Below are positions 18,408 to 46,625 of a stretch of DNA of 64,000 nucleotides, piece after piece. The notes below the pieces were generated by a model, which saw only the letters and a program-made list of their open reading frames with translations, was not told where the DNA came from and searched no databases. The position numbers and the translations under genes were made by a program. Each line of letters starts with the position of its first letter. The first letter of the stretch is position 1. This DNA comes from Mermis nigrescens (lineage: Eukaryota; Nematoda; Enoplea; Mermithida; Mermithidae). The DNA lies in NCBI GenBank assembly GCA_036768485.1, contig JAVLUZ010000228.1:1696384-1760383 (forward strand). The letters are read 5' to 3'.

Positions 18408-20176
18408 ACGAGGCGGAGGAAGAAGTAACAGACAAGACTCCACGCAAATCGGTGGAAATTGAAAAGCGAATTCCATCTACGCCATCGGATCGTGTCAAAG
18501 AGATCGAAGGTAAAAAGTCAAGTGTTCGTGCTAAGCAACCAATTGAATTTATTTCCGAAAGCCCCGCACTGAGCACGAGATCTAAAAAAGGCCTATTGGA
18601 GAGGAGTGATTACTCCTTCGTGCTTGGTTCACCCGCTGCAAAATTTGGACCAATCAGAGTTGACCAGACTCCACGAGCAGCCAATAAAAAAAGCGATCTG
18701 ATTAAGAAGGATTCGGCGAAGAAAGATTACTCATTTTCGCCTAATTCGTCAGCCGCAAAATCGGGACCAATCAGAGCCGACCCAACTCCACGAGCGGCCA
18801 ATAGAAAAAGCGAGCTGATTAAGGAAGATTCGGCAAAGAAAGATTACTCGTTCGTGCGTGATTCGCCAGCTACGAAATTTGAACCAATCAGAGCTGAGCA
18901 GACTCCACGAGCAGCCGATAGAAAAATCGATCTGATTAAGAAGGATTCGGCCAAGAAAGATTACTCATTTTTGCCTAATTCGCCAGCTGCGAAATTGGGA
19001 CCAATCGGAGCTGACCCAAGTCCGCGAGCAGCCAATAGAAAAAGCCAGCCGATTAAGGAAGGTTCGGCAAAGAAAAATAACTCATTCGCGCCTGATTCGC
19101 CAGCTACGAAATTTGAACCAATCATAGCCGAGCAGACTCCACGAGCAGCCAATAGGAAAATCGAGCCCATTGAAGAGGATTCGGTTGACAAGAATGACGA
19201 GGCGGCAAAGGCCGGCCGACGACGACGTATTAGTCGAAAGAAAAGCGTTGTGGAAGAGAAAAGAACAAATCAGAAAGAAGCGAGTCAAGCCAAACGGAAA
19301 GTTGTCAAACGTTCGAGTCGGAAACAAACCAACGTTTCACACGAAAATGACTCATCGAAGGGCGATCAAGAAAACATGGGCTTAACATCAAAGCTGAAGC
19401 CGCCAATCGCCGGTCTCAAATCGCGCCAAACGAAAAATCGCAGCGCGATTAAGGAAAAAATCGATAACGCAATGCAACAGGGATGTACATTGGAAGTAGT
19501 TAAGCGTAGCAAGACGACGAAATCGGCGGAAAAGGGCGACACGGACGAATTGTACCCCAGACGCACGACTCGGAGAGCCTGGGCGAAGTTAGCCACGCCT
19601 CCTCGTGCTTCTGATGAACCAATGAAAAAGAAGAGTCGGCGAGCTGCCAATCAAAAGAGTTTAGACAGAGAGGAGGAGGAGTTAATCGAAGTTGAGCAGA
19701 AGGAGAAACAGGCCAGTCGTAGTTCGGTTTCAAGGAAAAGGGGGTCTGAAGCCGTCGATTTGGTGGTAGAAGCTAAATCGAATAAACGGAGTGCGCGCCT
19801 TAGAGGAAAACAACCGAATCAGATTGGCATTGATTCGAAAAGCTCCGATTCTCGCGTATCAAAGCGGAAGCCGGCAGTGGAAGAAAAGCTCGAAGATATC
19901 AATCGAGGCAAGAATAAAGAGCCTATCAAACGGAAGCAAAAGTTGGAAGATAAGTCGATTCCTCAAGAGCCAAAAACACGTAATACGCGAAATCTGAGCA
20001 AAACGGGAAAAATCGCTATCGAAATGATTCAAGATGCCGCTAGTGCGTCGATAAGGGATGCAAATTCGAATGCCAGTGTAAAGCGTAAAGCTAATAACGC
20101 TAAACCGTCGAAATTGTCCAAACTTGTGTCCGTTTCGCCTGTTAAACGAGTGACAAGGTCTATGAAGCCTAAATAA
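18408..20176 (+). CDS. Terminal exon D of Lys/Arg/Ser-rich protein gene
   Basis: Acceptor TGTTTTTTAG, phase 1, open for 589 codons to a TAA. The product is strongly basic and low in hydrophobic residues. It opens with an acidic stretch (DEAEEEV) and a KTPRKS motif. Five tandem 39-residue repeats (18602-19186) follow, then a long Lys/Arg/Ser/Glu-rich tail with many KR pairs (RRRRISRKKS, KRSARLRGK) that ends VKRVTRSMKPK. There is no recognised domain. Composition suggests a nuclear, possibly chromatin- or RNA-associated, intrinsically disordered protein (inference). Codon use is consistent and there are no frameshifts over 1.77 kb, so it is under selection. It joins exons A-C' in frame. Confidence 0.85.
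18602..19186 (+). repeat. Five in-frame 117-bp repeats within exon D
   Basis: Units begin at 18602, 18719, 18836, 18953 and 19070, each 39 codons. Each contains a DYSF-like start, an SPAAK or SPATK core, a PRAANRK motif and an IK-DSA end. Units 2 and 4 resemble each other (ADP) and units 3 and 5 resemble each other (FEPI, AEQ), so a two-unit block was duplicated. Confidence 0.85.
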
Positions 20177-33148: not shown

Positions 33149-33153
33149 CCGTG

Positions 33154-33952
33154 AGTAGTTAGGCGTGTGTCCCTAGGTAGCAATGTTATAACATGGCCTG
33201 TGTTATAGCATAGGCGGAGGGGCTCAGAATCTGCTCCCTGGCTTTTCTCAGGGAGCAATGGTGTAGCATAGGCTGTGTTGTAGCATAGGTGCCTGCCCGG
33301 GAAGGGGGCGCGCGCCAGTCCAGGGCCAGGGGCCCAGGGCCAGGGAGGGGGAAATTTCCAGGGGGAAATTTCCCTGGGGAAAACTTGAAATAACTATAAC
33401 TCAAGAACCAGCACTCGGATCAGGCTGAAATTTTTTGATAATGTTAAATATATGGTATGTACAAAATTTTAGCGCGCAACCTACAGTATACCAGCATTAG
33501 TTTACACTTTTGCATAACTCAAGAACCAATGCTTGGATTTTGTTCAAATTTCCAGGAAATGATGTATAGACATTAGCTGTGCTATGTACAGAATTTCAGC
33601 ACGCAGCCTACAGTAAACCAATTTATTTTACACTTTCTCATATAGTACTCTAACTTCAGGGATAGAGGGCGGATTGGGTTGAAATTTCAGGGGTAGTATA
33701 CATATCCTATTAGAAAACTATTACAAGAGTTTTGTGGAAATACCTACAGTATATCAATTTTTTACAATGCACCCAAGAAAAATTGTGTACACGCGCTTAG
33801 GCAGGGGCTCAGAGTCAGATGGGGGACACTCCCGCCACTTTACACTGTATGATTTTCGCCGATCTACGTCAAACACTCATTGATTGATCGTTCGTGAAAG
33901 TATGCATAATATTCTTTTGTTTGCTCGCTGAAATGGTGCCACAGATTAGCTA
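33154..33952. repeat. Left terminal inverted repeat of the Polinton
   Basis: 799 bp, matching the right repeat in inverse up to TAGCTAATC at its inner edge. Contains paired ATAACATGGC/GTTATAGCATAGG motifs near the tip and a C/G-rich block at about 33290-33370 that differs between the two ends. The inner part holds the 3' half of a small gene (33864-34157). Confidence 0.9.
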
Positions 33953-34157
33953 CGGTAGGCAAATCACGAAAAGTAAAACATTGTTTGACAAGTTTGGAAA
34001 AATTGCTGATAGCCTCAGCATCATTTTCTACTAAACTTTGTTTGTACTCAGTAGTTAGCTTAGACCAGAAGTACTTGCTTAAGGCAAAGGTGGATACGCT
34101 GTTCAGGCAAAGCAGGTGTGATAATAAAATGTTTATAGCCGATACCTGAAATGCATT
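33864..34157 (-). pseudogene. Small Polinton protein, FW family, copy 3 (no start codon)
   Basis: An open frame of 97 codons whose C-terminal two thirds align with the genes at 39739-40059 and 41277-41651: KYFWSKL near the middle, then DAEAISNFSKL and VANLWHHFSEQ. No in-frame ATG is present at the expected place. A TATA-like CTATAAACA (34130-34138) overlaps the stop codon of the minor capsid gene. The last ~30 codons lie inside the left terminal repeat, so they are also present, without the 5' part, at the right end. Function unknown. Confidence 0.65.
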
Positions 34158-34911
34158 TTAACAATTGTTTTGCCAAATTCAAAAGGCACAGGTTTATCTT
34201 GATCACTTTTAATGTTCACTTCAATGGTATTGAATGATTTTTGAGCACAGGTATATAATGTGGACTAATATATGCGTGATTAACAATGTCCATATATTTT
34301 CCTTCTATATTCACAACCTGCAGAAGCGGTGCAAAAACATTTCCAACGATTTGAGGCTCAACTATATCGCAATATACGTAAAAGTTGTGCATTCCACCTA
34401 GCATGTCGGGTGAATGGTATGCAACTATGTTTAATTCTTTTTTCGTAGTATAATCTATATTGCTAAGCTGGCTCTCTAGAAATCCTAGCATATACATTAA
34501 ATGCTTTGTCAGCTTTTCACTTTGAATATATCCAGTATTGATTGTTAAGTTACAGAATTTCCTATTTTCATCATACTTTATGCCAAAATATTGCATGTAA
34601 TCAAATTCGTCTATTTGGCTAACCGTTTTTATTCCATTTCTCATGGTTTGGATGAGGTCATGTATATTTAAATATCTTGCTCGAGGAATAAGCTAATTTT
34701 TGTCGCACATTGTTTTTGATGTCGTAAAACTGTATCATATTCTGCTCCTCGGCAACATTGTGCCATGTATTTGCATAAATTTTTCAGTTAACCCAACCTC
34801 CCAGTCGCTAGTTAATGCGATTTGCCTAGGCAGATTGGTAACAAAAGTGGCTGCAGTATTTGTTTCTTGTGAATTGCTCGGAAACGTTATGTAAAACTGT
34901 TTCACATCCAT
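34133..34911 (-). pseudogene. mCP: Polinton minor capsid (penton-like) protein, frameshifted
   Basis: Begins MDVKQFYITFPSNSQ and then SDWEVGL, the typical start of the single-jelly-roll penton-like protein of Polintons. Later it shows YVYCDIVEPQIVG and, near the end, PVPFEFGKTIVKMHF. These parts lie in different frames: breaks occur near 34780 (an A run), near 34660, and near 34215. The longest intact part is 34216-34644. A TATA box (34938-34945) lies 27 nt upstream of the ATG, inside the end of the protease gene. In Polintons this protein is expected to form capsid vertices (family knowledge). The breaks may be real decay or sequencing indels. Confidence 0.82.
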
Positions 34912-34915
34912 TTTT

Positions 34916-35597
34916 TTATAACCTTAGTTTATTGAAATATTTATAAATTTTTTCACTGAGCATAGATAGAGCAATGTTTGTGAAACTTATGCCTTTGCTC
35001 ATGCAGACCAAAAAGTAGATACACATATGACCACAGCTGATTGAGAAAAGCCCTTGTACTCGCATATTATTGTATGTAAATGAGAGCGCATTATCAGAAA
35101 TGTATTTATGCAATTGCACAGGTGGTTCTAAGCCATAGCTGTCAAAATAGTTGCAATGCTTCTTATTTTGAAAATAAATTGCGACCCAGTGTGATCCTCA
35201 CACCTGGGCGTGGGGGTTTGGGGGGTATGCACCCCCCAGAAACCAAAATACCCCCCAGAAATCAAAATACCCCCCCAGAATTCAATTTTTGAAATTTTTT
35301 TTCGTTTTTTTCGCAATTTTTTGATGCCAATGGATAGTGCTTGATGAGAAACGTCGAAAAATGGTGTTTTTATCGCCATACCACCATTTTTAAGGCCATT
35401 TTTTGACCTTCAAAAAATCTTGCACCCACCAGAATTTTCTTGCTGCCCACGTATGGTGATCCTGGTTCCTCACTGGGGTCCAAATTTACAACTAGAGCCG
35501 CAGGGTAGGTTCTTATAGGTGGCAGACAATCTATTGGGAAAACGCCTGCAAATGTATTATTATGTTTGAGAATTTTGAATATTTCAATAGTGTTCAT
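34916..35597 (-). pseudogene. PRO: Adenain-like cysteine protease, split by a MITE
   Basis: Two halves flank the R1 MITE at 35199-35455. The 5' half (from 35597) contains GVFPIDCLPP; the 3' half contains HWVAIYF, YFDSYG, VQGLFSISCGHMC. These fit the catalytic His, the acidic residue, the Gln and the Cys of adenovirus-type maturation proteases (family knowledge). Without the insertion and one copy of its 8-bp duplication the frame would be continuous to a stop at 34916. The start lies about 2 nt after the stop of the major capsid gene and there is no TATA box of its own, which suggests dicistronic expression. In the capsid cluster this enzyme would mature structural proteins. Confidence 0.88.
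35199..35455. mobile_element. hAT-like R1 MITE inside the Polinton protease gene
   Basis: 257 bp, flanked by a perfect 8-bp duplication GTGATCCT (35191-35198, 35456-35463). Same ends and body as 24310-24577. The insertion separates the first part of the protease from its catalytic His. Confidence 0.92.
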
Positions 35598-35599
35598 GT

Positions 35600-36913
35600 T
35601 TATGCATCATAGTCATGAAACGTGTTTCGGTTTTTATCAATCATTATTAAGTTATCAAATTCAGCATATATAATGATTTCAATGCCAGAATCGGGCAAAT
35701 TCTCAGAAAACCTAACAGCGATGCTTGTTGTTCCTTCACGGACTAGGTCCCAGTGTCCTCCATCATCTGCATCAGGAGTCAAATCGAACACAAAGAAGCA
35801 GTGACTTGTTTTAAAATCTTCTCTGCTAATGAAATTACCTTCATGCCCAATATCTAATGCATCAACATCTGAGTATAGGCTTGCAAGTACCTGTCATGTT
35901 TAAATGAAATGCTGAGTGGGTAAGCAGGATACGTTATACCTCCACACGTTACTTTTACATCATTTATGCTGAACAGTTTGAAGTTGAAAGGTGATTTTGC
36001 TAGATTGCCTCCACAAGCACTGCCTTCAACACAAGCAAACACTATACGCCTAGGCAGCTGACCAGTAAACAATGTATAATTGGGCGTTTCTCTAGCAGGA
36101 TTTGAAATGTGCAAATTAGTCAAAGCTACTCTCCTTATAGGATATTTTGCTGTATAGGAAAGCATTGTTTGCTCAAGAGCTAAATTCACAGTGTCCAAAA
36201 CCTCAACTTTATCGAATAAAAAATTTCATTTGTGAGACTTTCAAGTCAAGGCTGACATCCTCAAAGCACTGCAAAACAAATGCATTATTATTTCTGTGTA
36301 ATTCTAGGCGGAAATTGGTAAAATTAACTAAATATCTGTCTTGCAAGAACATGTCAATGTGCAGTGGGGCCGCAACTTCCACAACATTTTCATCTTTGAA
36401 CATTTTTGAACGTTTTTTGAAAGCTTCATTGTCTTTTGTGTCAACATCACTTCCACCTTCGTGAAAGTACAGCGCAGATTGCAAATGTGAATGCTTGGCA
36501 TCATACCCATAATTTAATTCGGTTTCAAAATACGATCTATATGCATATTTATCAGAGCTGTCAAAAACTAATTTGCCTCCTAAAAAGCATTTTACCTGCT
36601 TGAAGAAAGTCTTACCAATAAAATTGATAGGCGCATAGTCAGGCACTGCTGCTCCAGCAGCAACTACTGGTTTTTTGATTCTCAGTAGCATGTAAATGTA
36701 GTTTTTATTGAGCTGAATGTAATGTGGATCAGGAGGTACTCTAAATTCATATGGTCCCTCATTAGTAATAGGATTTGTAGGTTGAATTTCATGCCAAAAA
36801 CCATGCTTCATCACTACTTGAGTAGGAGGGACCGTAAAAAGGTCCAGTTCAGTCTTGGTACTGGGGATAGATTTTCCGTTTACGAGAGCCATTTTTTTGT
36901 TTTGAAAAAACAT
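35600..36913 (-). pseudogene. MCP: Polinton major capsid protein (hexon-like), two frameshifts
   Basis: The first 234 codons (36913-36209) contain MALVNGKSIPSTKTELDLF, PPTQVVMKHGFW and VPPDPHYIQLNKNYIYM, typical of the double-jelly-roll capsid protein of Polintons (F54H12.2-like). It continues in a second frame (to about 35854) and a third (35791-35600, ending with a YAEFDNLIMIDKNRN motif). One break is at a T run near 36205, the other near 35890. Without breaks the product would be about 430 residues, normal for the family. A TATA-like CTGTAAATA at 36930-36938 is 17 nt from the first ATG and 38 nt from the Met at 36892, which is the likelier start. Confidence 0.9.
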
Positions 36914-36921
36914 CTATCATG

Positions 36922-37278
36922 CTAGTACCTATTTACAGACTTTGGGCGGCTACCAAGACCCTCTCCTTGCTGCTGCTGAAGGGCATGAGAGGCTTCATCA
37001 AACAATTGAGCAGCTTCTCGCTTTGAGTGTTCTTTAGTAGACTCAAAAAGCGGTTTTCCCTGGGCCAAATCAGACGCCCTGTTTGAACCTGCAACTAGAG
37101 CATGTTTTCCAACTCGCTTACCAATTGACTGCAAAACTGGGACTGCCATTCTAAAAAGCGAATGGAACTGGTATGGGATGCCTTTATACCCTTCCAACCC
37201 ATAGCCTGTTTGGGCAGCCTGCCCTGTGTAGTAGTCCAACCAAATGTTGTAATCGTTAGGATTGAATTGAATGTGCAT
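36922..37278 (-). CDS. Small Polinton structural-cluster protein (PY/pX-like)
   Basis: 118 residues: an N-terminal aromatic/Gly-rich part (DYYTGQAAQTGYGLEGYKG), then FHSLFRMAVPVLQSIGKRVG, an amphipathic basic helix, then a Ser/Arg tail. The LFR...P.L...GK..G pattern is common to a small protein next to the capsid genes in Polintons and resembles adenovirus core/minor proteins (family knowledge, moderate certainty). It lies between the 188-residue gene and the capsid gene. TATA box CTATAAATA at 37317-37325, 39 nt before the ATG, overlapping the end of the upstream gene. Intact. Confidence 0.72.
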   Translation of the reverse strand: MHIQFNPNDYNIWLDYYTGQAAQTGYGLEGYKGIPYQFHSLFRMAVPVLQSIGKRVGKHALVAGSNRASDLAQGKPLFESTKEHSKREAAQLFDEASHALQQQQGEGLGSRPKSVNRY

Positions 37279-37319
37279 TTTTGTAATTTTGTTTTGAATA
37301 AATTATATGTGATAAGTAT

Positions 37320-37886
37320 TTATAGACTTTCATCCCAGTCGAATTCCCCACCTGCAGCAAAAATCTCCTTACCTTGTCTATTTACTATACTTTCCAGTGG
37401 AACATTTGTGCGATTAAACACTTTCAGCAATTCTTTTGTGCCAGGGTGCCTGCTTATTTTCTTATGCTCACGTGCAAGATCATTAACTAAATCTGCAATG
37501 TTTGAGCCTTCAATTCTATTGCCATCTATCACAAGCTCACCATTAGGCTCAATTTCAATAAATGGGTTTGTACGAATGTAGTGAAGAAGGAGTTTTGCCT
37601 TTGGGATCTGATTTTTTGGCATACCAACAAGCACATCTTCATCACTCAATGCATTCTTTGTATCTTCAACTATACTAGCTCTATATGGCTGCTGCTTTTG
37701 TTCATATAGTCGTTTAAATCTGCTAAGCACCTGATTGTATTTCATGAGTTTTATTTCAGGAGCTATACGTTTGCTATGCAAAACTTTTTGCAATTCATTA
37801 TCCAAGGAATCTAGCACAATATCAATAGGTTTAGTCCGCTCGCTGATTTCAGCGGGTATAAGAATCATTTTTTCAGTATGTTTCAT
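37320..37886 (-). CDS. Conserved Polinton structural-cluster protein, function unknown
   Basis: 188 residues, charged and mostly helical, with MKYNQVLSRFKRLYEQK in the middle and PKAKLLLHYIRTNP later. Proteins of this type sit in the capsid gene cluster of many Polintons; no enzymatic motif is seen. The start codon overlaps the stop codon of the upstream gene in the sequence ATGA (37883-37886). No TATA box precedes it, so it is probably translated from the upstream gene's mRNA by reinitiation (inference). Intact. Confidence 0.72.
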   Translation of the reverse strand: MKHTEKMILIPAEISERTKPIDIVLDSLDNELQKVLHSKRIAPEIKLMKYNQVLSRFKRLYEQKQQPYRASIVEDTKNALSDEDVLVGMPKNQIPKAKLLLHYIRTNPFIEIEPNGELVIDGNRIEGSNIADLVNDLAREHKKISRHPGTKELLKVFNRTNVPLESIVNRQGKEIFAAGGEFDWDESL

Positions 37887-38233
37887 TTTCTGCCAGCTAT
37901 TGCATCAGCTAATAAACTACCAGCTATTGTAAGTATGGGAGTAAGTAAAAGAGGAAGAAAACCACCTTCCTGTATTATAATATCTTTCTTTTGTTTTGTA
38001 GTCGCCTGCTTATTGTTTTCCAGGTATCTAATTTGATTTTGATATCTTCGAAGTTTATTTATATCCTTTTTATCGAAAGGAATATTACCATTCAGAAAGT
38101 TGTTTGCACAGTCACAGAGACAAAGGATTTGATCTTTGCTGGCAGTATTTATAATAGCGGTTATTTGAGGTTTTTTTGCTTGACTTAGGAGATGTAAACA
38201 ACCAATATTGCGTGTTAATTGTTCTTTACCCAT
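37883..38233 (-). CDS. Small Polinton protein with QEGGFLPLLLTPI segment (pVI/pX-like)
   Basis: 116 residues. An N-terminal Cys-containing helical part (LCLCDCANNFLNGNIPF) is followed by a basic stretch (KKDINKLRRYQNQ) and a hydrophobic C-terminus, GGFLPLLLTPILTIAGSLL. The latter is a hallmark of a small Polinton capsid-cluster protein thought to be membrane-active or core-associated (family knowledge, not proven). Overlaps the end of the ATPase gene by 19 nt. TATA box CTATAAATA at 38259-38267, 26 nt before the ATG, within the ATPase coding sequence. Intact. Confidence 0.78.
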   Translation of the reverse strand: MGKEQLTRNIGCLHLLSQAKKPQITAIINTASKDQILCLCDCANNFLNGNIPFDKKDINKLRRYQNQIRYLENNKQATTKQKKDIIIQEGGFLPLLLTPILTIAGSLLADAIAGRK

Positions 38234-38877
38234 TTTTTTGTCGCAATATCTCTGCTAGTATTTATAGATTTCTGCATATAAACAGTTGGATGCCTGCTAA
38301 AAATATTTGTTTTAAGCCTCAGTTCATCTCTAGCATTTTGAGTTAGATCAATTAAAAGGTAACCATGTGGCTGAGAAGTAGCATCAGAATAAGCTTCTAG
38401 AAAATATCTAGCGTTGGCAGGATAGAGCTGTCTGGAAAGCATTTGTGCCTGTAACTGATCAGCAGGGTGTTTGAATAAAACTATATAATCAGAGTTGATG
38501 CGTGAAGTTCTTAGACCATCAAAGAAAACGTTTTGAGCAAGGTGTATAATGCTAATGTTCCAATGATGACAACTCCTTGTAAAAAGTTGCACAATCTGGG
38601 CATTACCCTTGCTCTGTTGCATAAGATCATCGAGAATCAAAAGTTGAGGCACATGACTAAATTGTTTCAGGTAATTAAAATCAGGAAGCCCTTCTATGAA
38701 TGAAACATCATTTAATTTTTTATAAAGAGGCTGATTTTCTGCGAAGCACCACCAAATCTTTTTGATTTTAGTATCAATCAGGCATGCTCTATTCTCAATT
38801 AATCGCTTGACAAATGTTGTTTTGCCTGACTTTGTTGGTCCTGAAACAAGGCAGGTGAAAGGATGTTGGAACATCAT
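38215..38877 (-). CDS. ATP: DNA-packaging ATPase (FtsK/HerA-like)
   Basis: 220 residues with Walker A GPTKSGKT at residues 13-20 and Walker B LLILDD at 79-84, followed by a region with SRINSDYIVLFKHP. This layout is typical of the short genome-packaging ATPase of Polintons and related viruses. It should drive DNA into the capsid. Divergent from the TBP-like gene: the two start codons are 46 nt apart, and each has its own TATA box in the gap (38911-38919 for this gene). Intact, normal length for the family. Confidence 0.92.
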   Translation of the reverse strand: MMFQHPFTCLVSGPTKSGKTTFVKRLIENRACLIDTKIKKIWWCFAENQPLYKKLNDVSFIEGLPDFNYLKQFSHVPQLLILDDLMQQSKGNAQIVQLFTRSCHHWNISIIHLAQNVFFDGLRTSRINSDYIVLFKHPADQLQAQMLSRQLYPANARYFLEAYSDATSQPHGYLLIDLTQNARDELRLKTNIFSRHPTVYMQKSINTSRDIATKKWVKNN

Positions 38878-38923
38878 GGTTTTAGGTATAAATATAAGTT
38901 TATCAGGAAGTATTTATAGAAAA
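38878..38923. promoter_or_regulatory. Bidirectional promoter with two TATA boxes
   Basis: The 46-nt gap between the ATPase and TBP-like start codons holds TATAAATA on the plus strand (38887-38894, for the TBP gene) and CTATAAATA on the minus strand (38911-38919, for the ATPase gene). Confidence 0.8.
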
Positions 38924-39442
38924 ATGGTGACTATACAAAATATTTTACTGACTACAGCACTACCCCATACGCTTAACCTCGAAGAAATCTACCAGAAATT
39001 ACTGGAGACTGCACAATACAATTATTTGAGATTTCCAGGAATTGTATTTCGACTACCTCAGGCAACATTACTGGTTTTCAAATCAGGTAAAATTGTATAT
39101 GTTGGAGCCAAAACAGTGAAAGATGGTGAAAGTGCTATAAAAGCAGCTGTAGATGCATTAAATGCTAGGAGTGATGATTTAAAAGTGAAACCCCATATGT
39201 TCGTAGGCTCTGCTAATTTAGGGTTCCGCATTAATCTTTGCGAATTTTATGAGCTGGTGAAAAGAAAATGCATGTATGAAGTGGAATTGTTTCCTGGCTT
39301 AATATACAAATTCAGAAATATAACATTTTTGCTGTTCACAAGCGGAAAATTGATCCTTACAGGTGCAAAACAGGAGCATGAGTTGCATAGAGCATATAAA
39401 ATAGTTTCAACAATGCTTGAGAAATGCAGGTTAGATACATAA
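38924..39442 (+). CDS. TBP: TATA-box-binding protein (TBP) core encoded by the Polinton
   Basis: 172 residues forming two pseudo-symmetric repeats. Repeat 1 (residues 3-80) starts TIQN and has RFPGIVFRL and LLVFKSGKIVYVGAK. Repeat 2 (88-168) has ELFPGLIY and LLFTSGKLILTGAK. These match both halves of the eukaryotic/archaeal TBP saddle. The four DNA-kinking Phe are present (F37, F52, F123, F138). The Asn in the IQN motif is kept in repeat 1 but is His in repeat 2 (KPH). No N-terminal extension and no intron, so it is not a recent host gene copy with introns; a retrocopied or viral origin is possible. It has its own TATA box (38887-38894), 30 nt before the ATG. The start was chosen because upstream codons lie in the ATPase gene and promoter. 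Confidence 0.93.
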   Translation: MVTIQNILLTTALPHTLNLEEIYQKLLETAQYNYLRFPGIVFRLPQATLLVFKSGKIVYVGAKTVKDGESAIKAAVDALNARSDDLKVKPHMFVGSANLGFRINLCEFYELVKRKCMYEVELFPGLIYKFRNITFLLFTSGKLILTGAKQEHELHRAYKIVSTMLEKCRLDT

Positions 39443-39449
39443 TATTTCG

Positions 39450-39740
39450 AACTTTACAAAAAATTTTCCAAACTTTACAAAAAATATTCCAAATTTTACA
39501 AAAAATTTTCCAAACTTTACAAAAAATATTCCAAATTTTACAAAAAATATTCCAAACTTTACAAAAAATATTCCAAGCTTTACAAAAGTACTATGCTTAA
39601 GCATGTAAAATTATTTCAAAATTTTACAAAAAATTTTCCAAACTTTACAAAAAATATTCCAAATTTTACAAAAAATATTCCAAACTTTACAAAAAATGAT
39701 CCAAACTTTACAAAAATTATTCCAATCTTTACAAATTTTT
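39450..39740. repeat. 21-bp minisatellite (TTTACAAAAAATATTCCAAAC unit, ~14 copies)
   Basis: Unit variants differ at AAATATT/AAATTTT and CAAAC/CAAAT. A different short segment (39590-39620) interrupts the array. It fills the gap between the convergent ends of the TBP-like gene and the gene at 39739. Confidence 0.9.
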
Positions 39741-40059
39741 AGATCAATACTGATGACATGGATGAAGTTATGTGGTCATCAATGATTTTTGTATGGAGGT
39801 TCGCAAAGTAAAACCTAGCCTCAGGGCTTAAAAATTCCCACAAGTTAAACAGCAGGCAAAGATCGCCCTTTTTCAGGTGTTTTCTGATAAACTTTGAGAA
39901 GCTCAAAATAGCATGATCATCAAATTTGAGCAATGTTTGCCTATACTGGTTGCTCATTTTTGGCCAAAAATAATCACCAATGGCATCATTAGACAAATGT
40001 GCGTATTGTGATAAACGATGTAGAATATGATTGAAAAAACACTGACCAATAGACTCCAT
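39739..40059 (-). CDS. Small Polinton protein, FW family, copy 2
   Basis: 106 residues, no known domain. It aligns with the 124-residue gene at 41277-41651 and the open frame at 33864-34157 around a GDYFWPKM core, then DDHAILSFSKF, FNLWEFLS and a C-terminal AxxH segment. Probably all-helical and cytosolic or nuclear. TATA box CTATAAATA at 40084-40092, 25 nt before the ATG and overlapping the stop codon of the integrase gene. Its 3' end abuts the minisatellite. Intact. Role unknown. Confidence 0.7.
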   Translation of the reverse strand: MESIGQCFFNHILHRLSQYAHLSNDAIGDYFWPKMSNQYRQTLLKFDDHAILSFSKFIRKHLKKGDLCLLFNLWEFLSPEARFYFANLHTKIIDDHITSSMSSVLI

Positions 40060-40086
40060 TTTTGATCTTAAGATTTAACTTACTAT

Positions 40087-41141
40087 TTATAGCTTTACAA
40101 TATCAGAAACCCACGAGTCAAATTTAGGCGGGTAGCCTCTCCATCGCACCAAATAATCAGTTTTCTTGCCTTTTTTACGAACTTTTATAATTTTTTCAAT
40201 CACAAATAAATCATCTGATTTTGAAATAATTTTCTGCAACTCGGTTTCATAGAAAATACCCTCTAATTTTTCCCCCTTTTGATCTTCTAAAATATAAACG
40301 GGTGGTGTGCGAGCAAACCTCTCCTTAACAATGAAATTTCTTCGGTCCAGTTGGGCCAGAATCCTTTTTCGAATGTGCGTTTCACTTTACTTATACGAAC
40401 TTTATCACCAATATCAAATTTAAAAACAATGTTCGGTTTATCAATCCTGAATGCTTTGTTCAAAATTTCTCTTTCGTTTTTATAGGTAACGTTAGCGGGG
40501 GATGTACCAATGGTCCTATGAAAAGAATTATTATAATTTTTAAGCAAATTGGGCAAAATGTCAATATATTTAAATGTGTTCTTTTTAGTGAAATATCGCC
40601 ACATGCATTCTTCAAACGTACGATTAAACCGCTCAACAATACTAGCTTTCATTTCGCTTTTGGTCGTGAAAAAGTCAATAAACTGAGATTTCAAAAATTG
40701 CTGAAATTCTTTGTTTGTAAACTCAGTTTCCTGATCCGTTTGCAGTTTATATGGTTTACGGCCCGACGATTCGAAAATTTTCTGAAAAGATGCGATAATT
40801 TCTTTACCAGTTTTTGATTTAAGTGGCACTGACCATGCGTACTTTGAGAAAATATCAATACAATTGAGTAGATACTTAAAATTATGATTGTGGTCGGCTA
40901 ATGATTGCAGATCAACCAAATCCACTTGCCACTGTTCATCAACCCCGCTAACTATTACCTTGTTACGCGAATGTTTCTTTGCAGGTTTGTGTAGTGTATA
41001 TGTGGGTTGCTTTTCCAGCCATGCTTTTACCTTTTCAAATTTTGTAGCTGGGCGCACCTTTTTCACTCGAGCAAAAAGTTGATTCGCCCCCGTATACCCA
41101 GTTTGAGGGTCATAATATAATTTTGTCAACAATTTATCCAT
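40087..41141 (-). pseudogene. INT: Retroviral-type integrase with chromodomain, one frameshift
   Basis: The rve catalytic core is shown by WQVDLVDLQ (D74), KLQTDQETEF (D136) and KASIVERFNRT (E170). The C-terminal region has GDKVRISK (SH3-like part) and, in the next frame, a chromodomain with VEKI/VRKK-type start, DYLVRWRGYP and DSWV motifs, ending at 40087. The frame changes near 40322, just after the WTEEI motif; without it the product would be about 350 residues, normal for Polinton integrases. TATA-like CATAAATA at 41169-41176, 28 nt before the ATG. The enzyme inserts the element into host DNA; chromodomains may target it to modified histones (family knowledge). Confidence 0.93.
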
Positions 41142-41175
41142 TTTTTTAAATTTTATTTTTAATATTACTATTTAT

Positions 41176-41261
41176 GCTCTTATTGGCCGATCAAACGGAT
41201 CGTTTCCGGCTCCCACCACATGGAGGTTAAGAGCAACGGGAGCCTGCGCCTAGGTGGCGCA
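41176..41261. other. GC-rich, highly self-complementary intergenic segment
   Basis: Between the integrase promoter and the next gene lies an 86-bp stretch much richer in GC than its neighbours. Pairs include GCTCTTA (41176-41182) with TAAGAGC (41228-41234), CGATC with GATCG (41188-41202), GGCTCCC (41208-41214) with GGGAGCC (41238-41244), and TGCGCC with GGCGCA around a TAGGT loop (41245-41261). The first and third pairs would interlock. No tRNA-like boxes were identified with confidence. Confidence 0.5.
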
Positions 41262-41276
41262 CAATTTTTTACTACT

Positions 41277-41651
41277 TTACAACAAACGATTTACTTGTTG
41301 CAAAATAGAGTTATCATACATGTTTTCCCACATGTTCTTTCCATTTTGATCAAAAGCCGCATACAAACCACACAAAGAATCAACATCTTTGTCTAAAATG
41401 GCTGCTTTCAGTCTCAATGCAAAAATCCAAAATGCTTCACGTTTATCAATTTCGCGCTGTTCCTCTTTAAACGCATCGCTCATGTAACCCCAGAAACAAG
41501 AGCCTATGCTTTGAACATTTCTGACGCTCAAGTAGCGATTGTTAGCTTTTTCAATAAGCTTTTGGATAAAATGATGGTACGCTAGTTCACCGGGTGAAGA
41601 CATGCTTTCTTTTTTTAATAGCTGCATATATAATATACCTAACGCGCACAT
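41277..41651 (-). CDS. Small Polinton protein, FW family, copy 1
   Basis: Up to 124 residues, with IQKLIEKANNRYL, IGSCFWGYMSDAF and CGLYAAFDQNGKNMW. It is the longest and least similar of three paralogues in the element. The first ATG is only 2 nt from a TATA box (41653-41661), so translation more likely starts at the Met at 41627 (26 nt from the box) or 41603. The TATA box lies directly after the stop codon of the zinc-ribbon gene. No known domain; role unknown. Confidence 0.65.
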   Translation of the reverse strand: MCALGILYMQLLKKESMSSPGELAYHHFIQKLIEKANNRYLSVRNVQSIGSCFWGYMSDAFKEEQREIDKREAFWIFALRLKAAILDKDVDSLCGLYAAFDQNGKNMWENMYDNSILQQVNRLL

Positions 41652-41663
41652 TTATTTATAGAC

Positions 41664-41993
41664 TTAGTAAGCTGTTTTGGCCTTTCCCTCTTCAGCCTGC
41701 TGATCAGAATAGCGCTTCAGCACTCTTTTGCCCGCTTCCTGCATGGCTCTATTAAACTCGCTGCACCTGGGGCACATTTGGATATTCAAGTACCACCTGC
41801 CAGAATTCGTTTCGAAAAAGTCCCTTTCAGAACTATTTTTCTGACAAAAATAGCAAAGCTGGATCATTAGGGAGTACATGGGCCGATCCAAGTTCCTCCC
41901 ACATAGCTCTATGGCCGGTTTGATGGACCGGCCATATGGCTTCTTCTCCTCATCCAGAAAAAGACGCTTTTGGATTTCCCTGATTTCTTCCAT
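41664..41993 (-). CDS. Small zinc-ribbon-like Polinton protein
   Basis: 109 residues. CYFC (47-50) and CPRC (74-77), 24 residues apart, form a likely zinc-binding four-Cys site. A basic N-terminus (REIQKRLF) precedes it, and a helical C-terminus (AMQEAGKRVLKRYSDQQ) follows. The family is not recognised. Such ribbons often bind nucleic acid or act in transcription, and the element also encodes a TBP-like protein, but a link is only inference. TATA box CTATAAATA at 42044-42052, 51 nt from the ATG, divergent from the polymerase-fragment gene. Intact. Confidence 0.65.
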   Translation of the reverse strand: MEEIREIQKRLFLDEEKKPYGRSIKPAIELCGRNLDRPMYSLMIQLCYFCQKNSSERDFFETNSGRWYLNIQMCPRCSEFNRAMQEAGKRVLKRYSDQQAEEGKAKTAY

Positions 41994-42113
41994 TTTCTCC
42001 TTAACGTACTAAAAAGAGTAGTTAAACAGTAGACCATTATTAGTATTTATAGATTTTGATTGTATGTCTATAAATATGGGCAAGTATAACTCCATAAAGT
42101 TCTTACATTAAAA
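41994..42113. promoter_or_regulatory. Divergent promoter region with two TATA boxes
   Basis: CTATAAATA occurs on the minus strand (42044-42052, for the zinc-ribbon gene) and on the plus strand (42068-42076, for the polymerase-fragment gene, 38 nt before its ATG). Confidence 0.75.
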
Positions 42114-42884
42114 ATGGATCTGAATAAATACTTTGAAGTACATGAGTTCCCGGAGATTTTTGTTCGTAGGTTTAAGACAACTGCAAGAGCATTTTTGCTG
42201 CGGTTTAAGAAATGCCCTAATCTGTTTGAGGTCTTTGAGCAGATTTTTGAGGAAGCTATCAAGCAGATGTTGCATGACTGTCCTCCTGACTCTTTGGTAG
42301 GTATTGAAATTAGACAGCCGTGCCTTGATGCGCCTGTATTAGTTCCATTTACTCAACGTGAGTATATAAATGCTGGCAAGGTTTTGAGCATTATAGAAAA
42401 TGTAGCCCAGTCTAAGAACGAGTTTTGCTTGAGCGAGGACATAGCTTTCAAAATAGTTATTGTTGATAAAAAACAACAAACCGGAACTGGCCTTGAACCT
42501 GATGTGAGGGAGTTTTGTAAAAATGGAGGTGGATATATTGAAATCACCTCAAATGATAATTTATCCCTACCTCGAGCTGTTGTAACAGGAATAGCAAAGC
42601 TAGAAAAGAGCCCAAAATGGGATTCCATTAGGAAAGGAGATAAGAGCCGATGTACTCTGCAAAAACGGCTAGCATTAGAACTGATGCACAAAGCTAATCT
42701 TAGCATTAATGAAGATAAATATGGGCTTGAAGCTGTAGAGAAAATTCAAAATGCTTTGGTGCCAGAGTTCCAAATAAAAATATATCATGGCAATGTTTTG
42801 TTCTTTGAAGGACCTAAAGCTGCCAAGGTGATTCACTTGCACACTGCTAATAATCATTATAACCTGATTACAAAAATGCCCTAA
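42114..42884 (+). CDS. PolB: N-terminal part of protein-primed DNA polymerase B, truncated
   Basis: 256 residues matching the N-terminal region of Polinton PolB: GIEIRQPCLDAPVLVPF, SLPRAVVTGIAKLEKSP and, at the end, NHYNLITKMP, which normally leads into a Cys-rich segment and then the exonuclease and polymerase domains. Here the frame stops at once, and the right terminal repeat begins 3 bp later. The exonuclease and polymerase motifs are absent from the whole element. Polinton PolB usually exceeds 1000 residues. The remaining frame is intact; whether the fragment is still made or useful is unknown. It has its own TATA box at 42068-42076. Confidence 0.85.
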   Translation: MDLNKYFEVHEFPEIFVRRFKTTARAFLLRFKKCPNLFEVFEQIFEEAIKQMLHDCPPDSLVGIEIRQPCLDAPVLVPFTQREYINAGKVLSIIENVAQSKNEFCLSEDIAFKIVIVDKKQQTGTGLEPDVREFCKNGGGYIEITSNDNLSLPRAVVTGIAKLEKSPKWDSIRKGDKSRCTLQKRLALELMHKANLSINEDKYGLEAVEKIQNALVPEFQIKIYHGNVLFFEGPKAAKVIHLHTANNHYNLITKMP

Positions 42885-42887
42885 TTC

Positions 42888-43704
42888 TAGCTAATCTGTG
42901 GCACCATTTCAGCGAGCAAACAAAAGAATATTATGCATACTTTCACGAACGATCAATCAATGAGTGTTTGACGTAGATCGGCGAAAATCATACAGTGTAA
43001 AGTGGCGGGAGTGTCCCCAATCTGACTCTGGGCCCCTGCCTAAGCGCGTGCACACAATTTTTCTTGGGAGCATTGTAAAAAATTGATATACTGTAGGTAT
43101 TTCCACAAAACTCTTGTAATAGTTTTTTTCTAATAGGATATGTATACTACCCTTAAAATTTCAATCCAATCCGCCCTCTATCCCTAAAGTTAGAGTACTA
43201 TAGCAGAAAGTGTAAAGTAAATTGGTATACTGTAGGCTGCGCGCTGCATTCTGTGCATAGCATGCCTCGCCTATATACATCATTTCCTGAAAATTTGAAC
43301 AAAATCCAAGCATTGGTTCTTAGTTTATGCAAAAGTGTAAACTAATGCTGGTATACTGTAGGCTGCGCTTGCTAAAATTTTAGTACATAGCATACACTCA
43401 GCATACTCTGAAAATTTGAGCCAGATCCGACCGCTGGTTCTTGACTTACGCCTCTTCAAAAATTACCCCGGGGTTAATAACCCCCTGGGTAGTAACCCCC
43501 TGGGTTATTGTATCCCCTCCTGGCCCCTGGGCCCTTGGCCTGGGCTGGACACCCCTTCCCGGGCAGGCACCTATGCTACAACACAGCCTATGCTACACCA
43601 TTGCTCCCTGAGAAAAGCCAGAGGCAGATTCTGAGCCCCTCCGCCTATGCTATAACACAGGCTATGTTATAACATTGCTACCTAGGGACACATGCCTAAC
43701 TACT
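42888..43704. repeat. Right terminal inverted repeat of the Polinton
   Basis: 817 bp, inverse of the left repeat. Its inner edge is 3 bp past the stop codon of the truncated polymerase gene. It carries a 3'-terminal fragment of the small gene that is intact only at the left end. Confidence 0.9.
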
Positions 43705-43709
43705 CCGTG

Positions 43710-46625
<2,916 letters not shown>

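Follow-up and report, generated by a model that had tools for sequence, protein, structure and literature searches.

A Polinton-like element in the genome of the nematode Mermis nigrescens encodes an intact TATA-binding protein (TBP). This gene recurs across the genome, is under purifying selection, and lies among genes most of which carry a TATA box shortly upstream. We consider it probable that the element TBP acts together with host TFIIB and RNA polymerase II to drive the TATA promoters of the element itself. The element lies in a stretch of 64,000 nucleotides (the window), to which the coordinates below refer unless another locus is named.

The TBP gene and the element that carries it

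The TBP gene (38924..39442, + strand) encodes 172 amino acids and contains no intron. Its frame is open from the ATG at 38924 to the stop codon ending at 39442, and both TBP repeats are matched by the Pfam profile (PF00352, E = 1.4e-40; score 137.5 bits, cut-off 22.9), which rules out a chance frame. The original prediction that the element encodes an intact 172-residue TBP with both repeats is thus borne out, and so are the four intercalating phenylalanines (F37, F52, F123, and F138) and the motifs LFPGLIY (residues 122–128) and SGKLILTGAK (residues 140–149), all present at the positions given there. Among PDB sequences the archaeal TBP 1mp9 was the best match (E = 1.2e-27), and the saddle fold is present in the predicted structure. 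The best viral structure in BFVD was 18% identical to the element TBP.

Local alignment of the flanks set the ends of two terminal inverted repeats of about 0.8 kb each (left, 33153..33952, + strand; right, 42888..43705, − strand; 88.6% identical by blastn over 822 columns), and the element therefore spans 10,553 bp including both repeats (33153..43705). Directly outside AGTAGTTAGG at both ends stands CCGTG, a candidate 5-bp target duplication. Polintons/Mavericks are 15–20 kb long and have a 6-bp target duplication; in comparison, the window element is shorter (10.55 kb) and shows 5 bp at its ends. With them and with the adintoviruses it shares the long terminal inverted repeats, an rve-type integrase, an A32-like ATPase, an adenain-like protease, and presumptive capsid genes; it differs from them in its length, in carrying a TBP, and in that no polymerase gene was found. 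Neither Pfam searches nor blastp against the polymerase-like frames described below detected a polymerase gene, protein-primed polymerase B included, between the repeats. For this reason the name Polinton given in the original prediction is supported in part.

Divergent from TBP runs an intact gene for an A32-like packaging ATPase (38215..38877, − strand), whose Pfam Pox_A32 match passes the cut-off narrowly (23.5 bits against 22.8). On the same strand follow two open frames conserved in relatives, p116 (37883..38233) and p188 (37320..37886), then p118 (36852..37278), a gene resembling that of a major capsid protein (MCP, 35603..36913), an adenain-like protease gene (34919..35597), and a penton-like gene (34145..34911). 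The position of p118 was set by alignment to relatives, and the capsid-like, protease, and penton-like genes were recognized through open frames in relatives. The protease of a relative matched Pfam Peptidase_C5 (25.3 bits, cut-off 21.3). The MCP of an intact relative gave a weak Pfam double jelly-roll match below the cut-off (E = 0.0073), and its capsid identity, assigned by eye, is presumptive. The penton-like gene was named by eye and had no match in a Pfam search; its identity is putative. On the other side of TBP lie p106 (39739..40059, − strand), the integrase gene (40090..41141, − strand; Pfam rve, 53.1 bits, cut-off 32.6), p124 (41277..41603, − strand, taken from a conserved ATG at 41603, the frame's first ATG being at 41651), p109 (41664..41993, − strand), and p256 (42114..42884, + strand). 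These four p frames are open and conserved in relatives. A Pfam search with p256, the right-end protein, gave no match, and p256, at first taken by eye for a polymerase fragment, was dropped as a candidate when a blastp comparison with the polymerase-like frames did not bear this out.

As had been predicted, the capsid, protease, and integrase genes are broken in the window copy: relatives' proteins align to the MCP, protease, penton, integrase, and p118 genes only across frame changes or stops. Capsid and protease frames are open in other copies. That TBP stayed intact amid broken capsid genes is true, but it is not special in this, since seven other frames (ATPase, p116, p188, p106, p124, p109, and p256) are open as well.

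The p116 and p188 frames share 4 bases, and p188 lacks its own TATA box; the protease gene stands close behind the capsid gene, likewise without a box. For both pairs this arrangement suggests shared transcripts with reinitiation. Behind TBP, starting at its stop codon, lies a minisatellite with 14 copies of a 21-bp unit like ATTCCAAACTTTACAAAAAAT (39441..39735). A related array was present behind TBP at 27 of 27 scorable loci from the window's lineage and at 0 of 14 diverged loci (L001 being the window and L009 a repeat of L002; L016, L019, and L023 were left unscored). The array is possibly an origin, a terminator, or a packaging signal. The original prediction had mentioned neither this minisatellite nor the inverted repeats, the TATA boxes, and the copy number. 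Outside the element, a basic, repeat-rich open frame of 574 amino acids with a 117-bp tandem repeat was seen at 18452–20176, and two long (TA)n arrays (45290–45434 and 46464–46623) lie to the right of the element, about 1 kb apart.

Copies, selection, and descent of the element TBP

In a protein search of the same genome (524 Mb, 860 contigs), 150 of 2,218 candidates were scored and all 150 matched; TBP is thus encoded at no fewer than 150 places. No stop was present in the matched stretch at 114 of the 150 (our own count; some matches cover part of the gene). A profile search, in which 150 of 2,552 candidates were scored, returned as its two best matches exons of the host's canonical TBP gene (contig C73), and 18 places (L031–L048) were fetched from the other 148. 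By eye, this host TBP and FN3/Ig-like frames point to an animal-like genome. The copies L003–L008 encode an identical TBP protein and their genes differ at 0–6 bases, which points to recent spread. For 12 distinct sequences, dN/dS was 0.11–0.33 in the pairs whose dS was 0.25 or higher (Nei–Gojobori; rough values, some dS being near 1). The element TBP is under purifying selection.

The ATPase gene is the direct divergent neighbor of TBP in 18 of the 20 longer loci that were fetched (L009–L028). In L024 an integrase gene lies between the two; in L019 TBP and an integrase gene are adjacent, and the stretch fetched showed no ATPase. Beside TBP, both loci also contain frames with putative polymerase B motifs. 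By blastp these frames had no other match in the window or the 20 loci, and searches of Pfam, NCBIfam, and PDB with the pieces tried gave no polymerase match. Judged by eye, the TBP of L019 (4664–5182 of that locus) looks like a mosaic whose first half resembles L024 and whose end resembles the window's lineage, which suggests recombination between element families. With the pattern used, no inverted-repeat ends were found in the other fetched loci.

Identity to the window TBP ranges from 71 to 100% within the window's lineage, where the other sequences compared stand at 71–98%, and from 30 to 42% in eight further lineages; the host TBP is 32% identical. Marker genes recognized by eye beside the diverged TBPs are p109 in L031–L036, p106-like frames in L037, L038, L043, and L044, and a penton-like frame in L040; none was recognized with certainty in L042, L045, L046, and L047. 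Frames that look F-box-like by eye adjoin TBP in L031 (2173–2505) and L038 (1824–2501), the latter with no match in an NCBIfam search.

In a maximum-likelihood tree of 48 sequences, 18 of 19 element TBPs and the public protein P0007 formed one clade (98/88), and the host TBP grouped with another eukaryotic TBP. P0007 most likely comes from another genome, as its best match among the 150 places scored here was 58%. When P0059, P0060, and P0066 were added, the clade stood (96/94) and all three nested inside it, which brings the proteins from public assemblies in this clade to four. Host TBP and nine sequences of the window's lineage as one clade were rejected (p-AU = 8e-8), and so were host TBP, 18 element sequences, and P0007 (p-AU = 0.005). 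The original prediction had named two outcomes that would speak against it, the lack of a significant TBP profile match and a recent retrocopy of host TBP unique to one copy. Neither occurred: the profile match is strong, and the phylogeny and the number of places found both point away from such a retrocopy. The long-branched L040 sequence fell outside the element clade in the free tree, and a tree holding all element TBPs together, L040 included, was not rejected (p-AU = 0.52; 0.54 with the four public proteins). One old capture of a eukaryotic TBP would be the simplest reading of these sequences, and the L040 TBP could be a second capture. In IMG/VR, queries with the element TBP, its alignments, P0007, ATPases, or capsid proteins yielded no confirmed locus. 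A broad TBP alignment retrieved 13 loci there, one of which (L058) was left out of the tree by a length filter; the 12 in the tree all lay outside the element clade.

Contact residues and TATA boxes

We take the four central polar DNA contacts of TBP to be two asparagines and two threonines, and E119, E121, and L122 to be residues that contact TFIIB. All three of the latter are kept in the window copy. Among the polar contacts, N6 and T146 are kept and the other two positions hold Val 60 and Met 92, so that two of four are changed. These changes bear on specificity and not on membership in the TBP family; they might make DNA binding weaker rather than shift it. The repeat-1 threonine is replaced by Val or Leu, and the repeat-2 asparagine by Leu, Met, or Thr, in 9 of 9 sequences of the window's lineage, in both sequences of lineage H, and in P0007. 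Lineages G, K, L, M, and N and the host TBP keep both residues, and lineages F and J are changed at the repeat-1 threonine only. At the other positions there were these exceptions: L019 lacks F52, L044 lacks F138, L031 has Tyr at F138, and E119 is replaced by Lys in L019 and L023. These exceptions may be decay. In 17 of 19 element sequences (all but L031 and L040), the turn that leads into the fourth strand of repeat 2 is shorter by two residues than that of the host; among the public relatives it is shorter in P0007 and P0060, and not in P0059 and P0066. The charge of helix 2 was dropped as a hallmark because three of four public relatives are at +2 to +4.

The sequence TATAAATA, which we take to be close to the canonical TATA box, occurs 11 times in the window element. 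Nine of these copies lie in sense orientation 32–58 nt upstream of a gene start, which makes 9 of 13 genes when p124 is counted from its conserved internal ATG. The spacer between TBP and ATPase holds one box in each direction, 37 nt before the ATG of TBP (38887..38894, + strand) and 41 nt before that of ATPase (38911..38918, − strand). The remaining boxes belong to p116 (38259..38266, − strand, within the ATPase coding end), p118 (37317..37324, − strand), the penton-like gene (34938..34945, − strand), p106 (40084..40091, − strand), p124 (41653..41660, − strand), p109 (42044..42051, − strand), and p256 (42069..42076, + strand). There is no box at p188 or the protease gene, and the MCP and integrase genes have one-mismatch forms. 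The density of TATAAATA is 1.04 per kb in the element against 0.15 per kb in the rest of the window; 8 of 11 genes had it within 60 nt, where a Markov null gave a mean of 0.23 and a maximum of 3 in 5,000.

Starts were also counted in the window element and the fetched loci, from which L001 (identical with the window) and L009 (the same place as L002) were excluded. Among frames of at least 80 codons that fit a start pattern, many of them near-copies and thus non-independent, a box within 110 nt was found at 20 of 20 starts of TBP, 15 of 15 of ATPase, 14 of 14 of p116, 8 of 8 of p118, 9 of 9 of p106, 4 of 5 of MCP, 5 of 6 of p124, 2 of 5 of penton, 0 of 20 of p188, and 0 of 8 of protease. In four elements listed by hand, 27 of 38 starts had a box within 75 nt. 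Genes of the diverged loci L031, L036, L037, L038, L043, L044, and L045 also carry the box. Upstream of TBP itself, other TATA forms were found in L037, L040, L045, and L047, and no clear TATA was seen in L031, L036, L043, and L046. The suggestion, made in the original prediction, that the element may control its own transcription gains support from the TATA boxes that precede most element genes.

At the ends of the ATPase and p118 genes the box is coding sequence (TCT ATA AAT ACT). Its codons are the same in 4 of 4 lineages compared for ATPase and in 3 of 3 for p118; at other identical residues, 46–91% (ATPase) and 74–90% (p118) of codons are shared. The box in the p118 coding end has decayed in the window copy. 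The bases TC precede the box at 21 of 22 sites of ATPase, 21 of 21 of p116, 14 of 14 of p118, 17 of 18 of p109, and 11 of 12 of p256, against 3 of 8 of p124, 0 of 26 of TBP, and 0 of 16 of p106 (duplicates included in all counts). TC was also present at three MCP sites and absent at one penton site.

Possible roles of the element TBP

If the element TBP drives the element's own promoters, a Polinton-like, capsid-encoding lineage would have acquired a eukaryotic TBP in the distant past and retained it among its core genes. Host machinery would first make the element TBP from the TATA promoter of the TBP gene. We infer that the protein would then bind boxes with a TATAAATA core about 30–60 nt upstream of most element genes and bring host TFIIB and RNA polymerase II to them, and so to the capsid module; transcription of the element would then start at promoters of its own and depend only in part on host TBP and TFIID. 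We count in favor of this reading the intact TBP with its many places in the genome, low dN/dS, and ATPase neighbor, and likewise the placement and enrichment of the boxes and their presence in diverged lineages. The kept TFIIB-contact residues, the two contacts changed throughout the window's lineage, and the parallel with BcRF1 of EBV described below were also counted for it. On the opposite side, host TBP could read TATAAATA boxes too, p188 and the protease gene have no box, and penton has one at only 2 of its 5 starts. The four loci in which no clear TATA precedes TBP, the missing F52 of L019, and the Lys at E119 in L019 and L023 likewise count against it.

The promoters with TC before TATAAATA (ATPase, p116, p118, p109, and p256) and those without (TBP and p106) would perhaps form an early/late switch. 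Their contexts fit an order in which TBP is made first through host machinery and the capsid module after. This contrast is drawn from base context, and the penton site with a box of the non-TC type counts against it. A wider proposal, which we put forward as possible and hold tentatively, is a self-contained promoter switch in a mobile virus of about 10 kb. A TBP encoded by the virus, whose DNA contacts are altered in the window's lineage, and the TATA boxes on most of its genes would run an early/late program on host RNA polymerase II. This switch would have originated a single time from a eukaryotic TBP and then been passed on and diversified throughout the radiation of these elements.

The element TBP might instead act mainly on the host, occupying TATA promoters or general factors and lowering or redirecting host transcription, with host TBP reading the element's boxes. 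A competitor or dominant-negative protein might keep its TFIIB contacts and change two DNA contacts, and TATAAATA is near the canonical TATA box; but TATAAATA in sense orientation is strongly enriched at the genes of the element itself, and several lineages keep the canonical contact residues, which makes such a role unlikely in our judgment. We regard as quite improbable a function in replication, packaging, or integration, in which TBP would bend TATA-like DNA to organize the element's DNA or would guide the integrase. It would suit the integrase and polymerase-like frames beside TBP in L024 and L019 and the minisatellite present at every scored locus of the window's lineage, but the boxes are tied to gene starts and away from the ends, and the TFIIB-contact residues are kept. 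Finally, a retrocopy of host TBP that had strayed into a single element and was now drifting would be intronless, as this gene is, and could lie beside broken capsid genes, as in the window copy. With 32% identity to host TBP, rejection of the joint clade at p-AU = 8e-8, dN/dS of 0.11–0.33, and at least 150 places, this explanation is already refuted and we give it practically no weight.

Viral TBPs are already known in giant viruses and mirusviruses. According to excerpts of the cited papers, TBP genes occur in 59% of mirusvirus genomes, with one genome of 431 kb (PMC10132985), and sporadically in putative mirusvirus-derived elements of an alga (PMC10675990), and the TBP of ASFV is expressed early and has been proposed to serve late promoters (PMC7458399). 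The genomes of giant viruses, mirusviruses, and ASFV described in such excerpts are far larger than the element, and the 12 IMG/VR TBPs of our tree stand outside the element clade. ASFV also has its own RNA polymerase; the element in our model would use host polymerase II. Excerpts on EBV describe BcRF1 as a TBP-like protein that acts on late TATT promoters with host polymerase II (PMC4893493). As in the late pre-initiation complex of beta- and gammaherpesviruses in these excerpts, a virus-encoded TBP-like protein would be paired with TATA boxes, there variant boxes of late genes. BcRF1 is there no more than a distant relative of TBP and depends on additional viral partners, whereas the element TBP is of the ordinary kind with two repeats and is accompanied by TATAAATA boxes; partner proteins for it were not identified. 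By analogy, and within the parts of the literature covered, the herpesvirus late complex and the early-made ASFV TBP would be the nearest parallels. Term searches of three texts (PMC8097293, PMC4642659, and PMC11071308) returned neither TATA nor TBP, and a full-text literature search found, in the text it covered, no report of a TBP in a Polinton. New here are TATAAATA upstream of 9 of 13 genes and the change of two of four polar contacts in the window's lineage.

In the compared libraries and excerpted papers, the eukaryotic viruses that have a TBP have much larger genomes. A TBP under selection beside TATA boxes on most genes of small transposon-like elements would imply that elements of this kind can take control of the initial step in transcription. 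Since many diverged TBPs and candidate promoters occur here beside the host TBP, the evolution of TBP specificity would become testable within a single genome.
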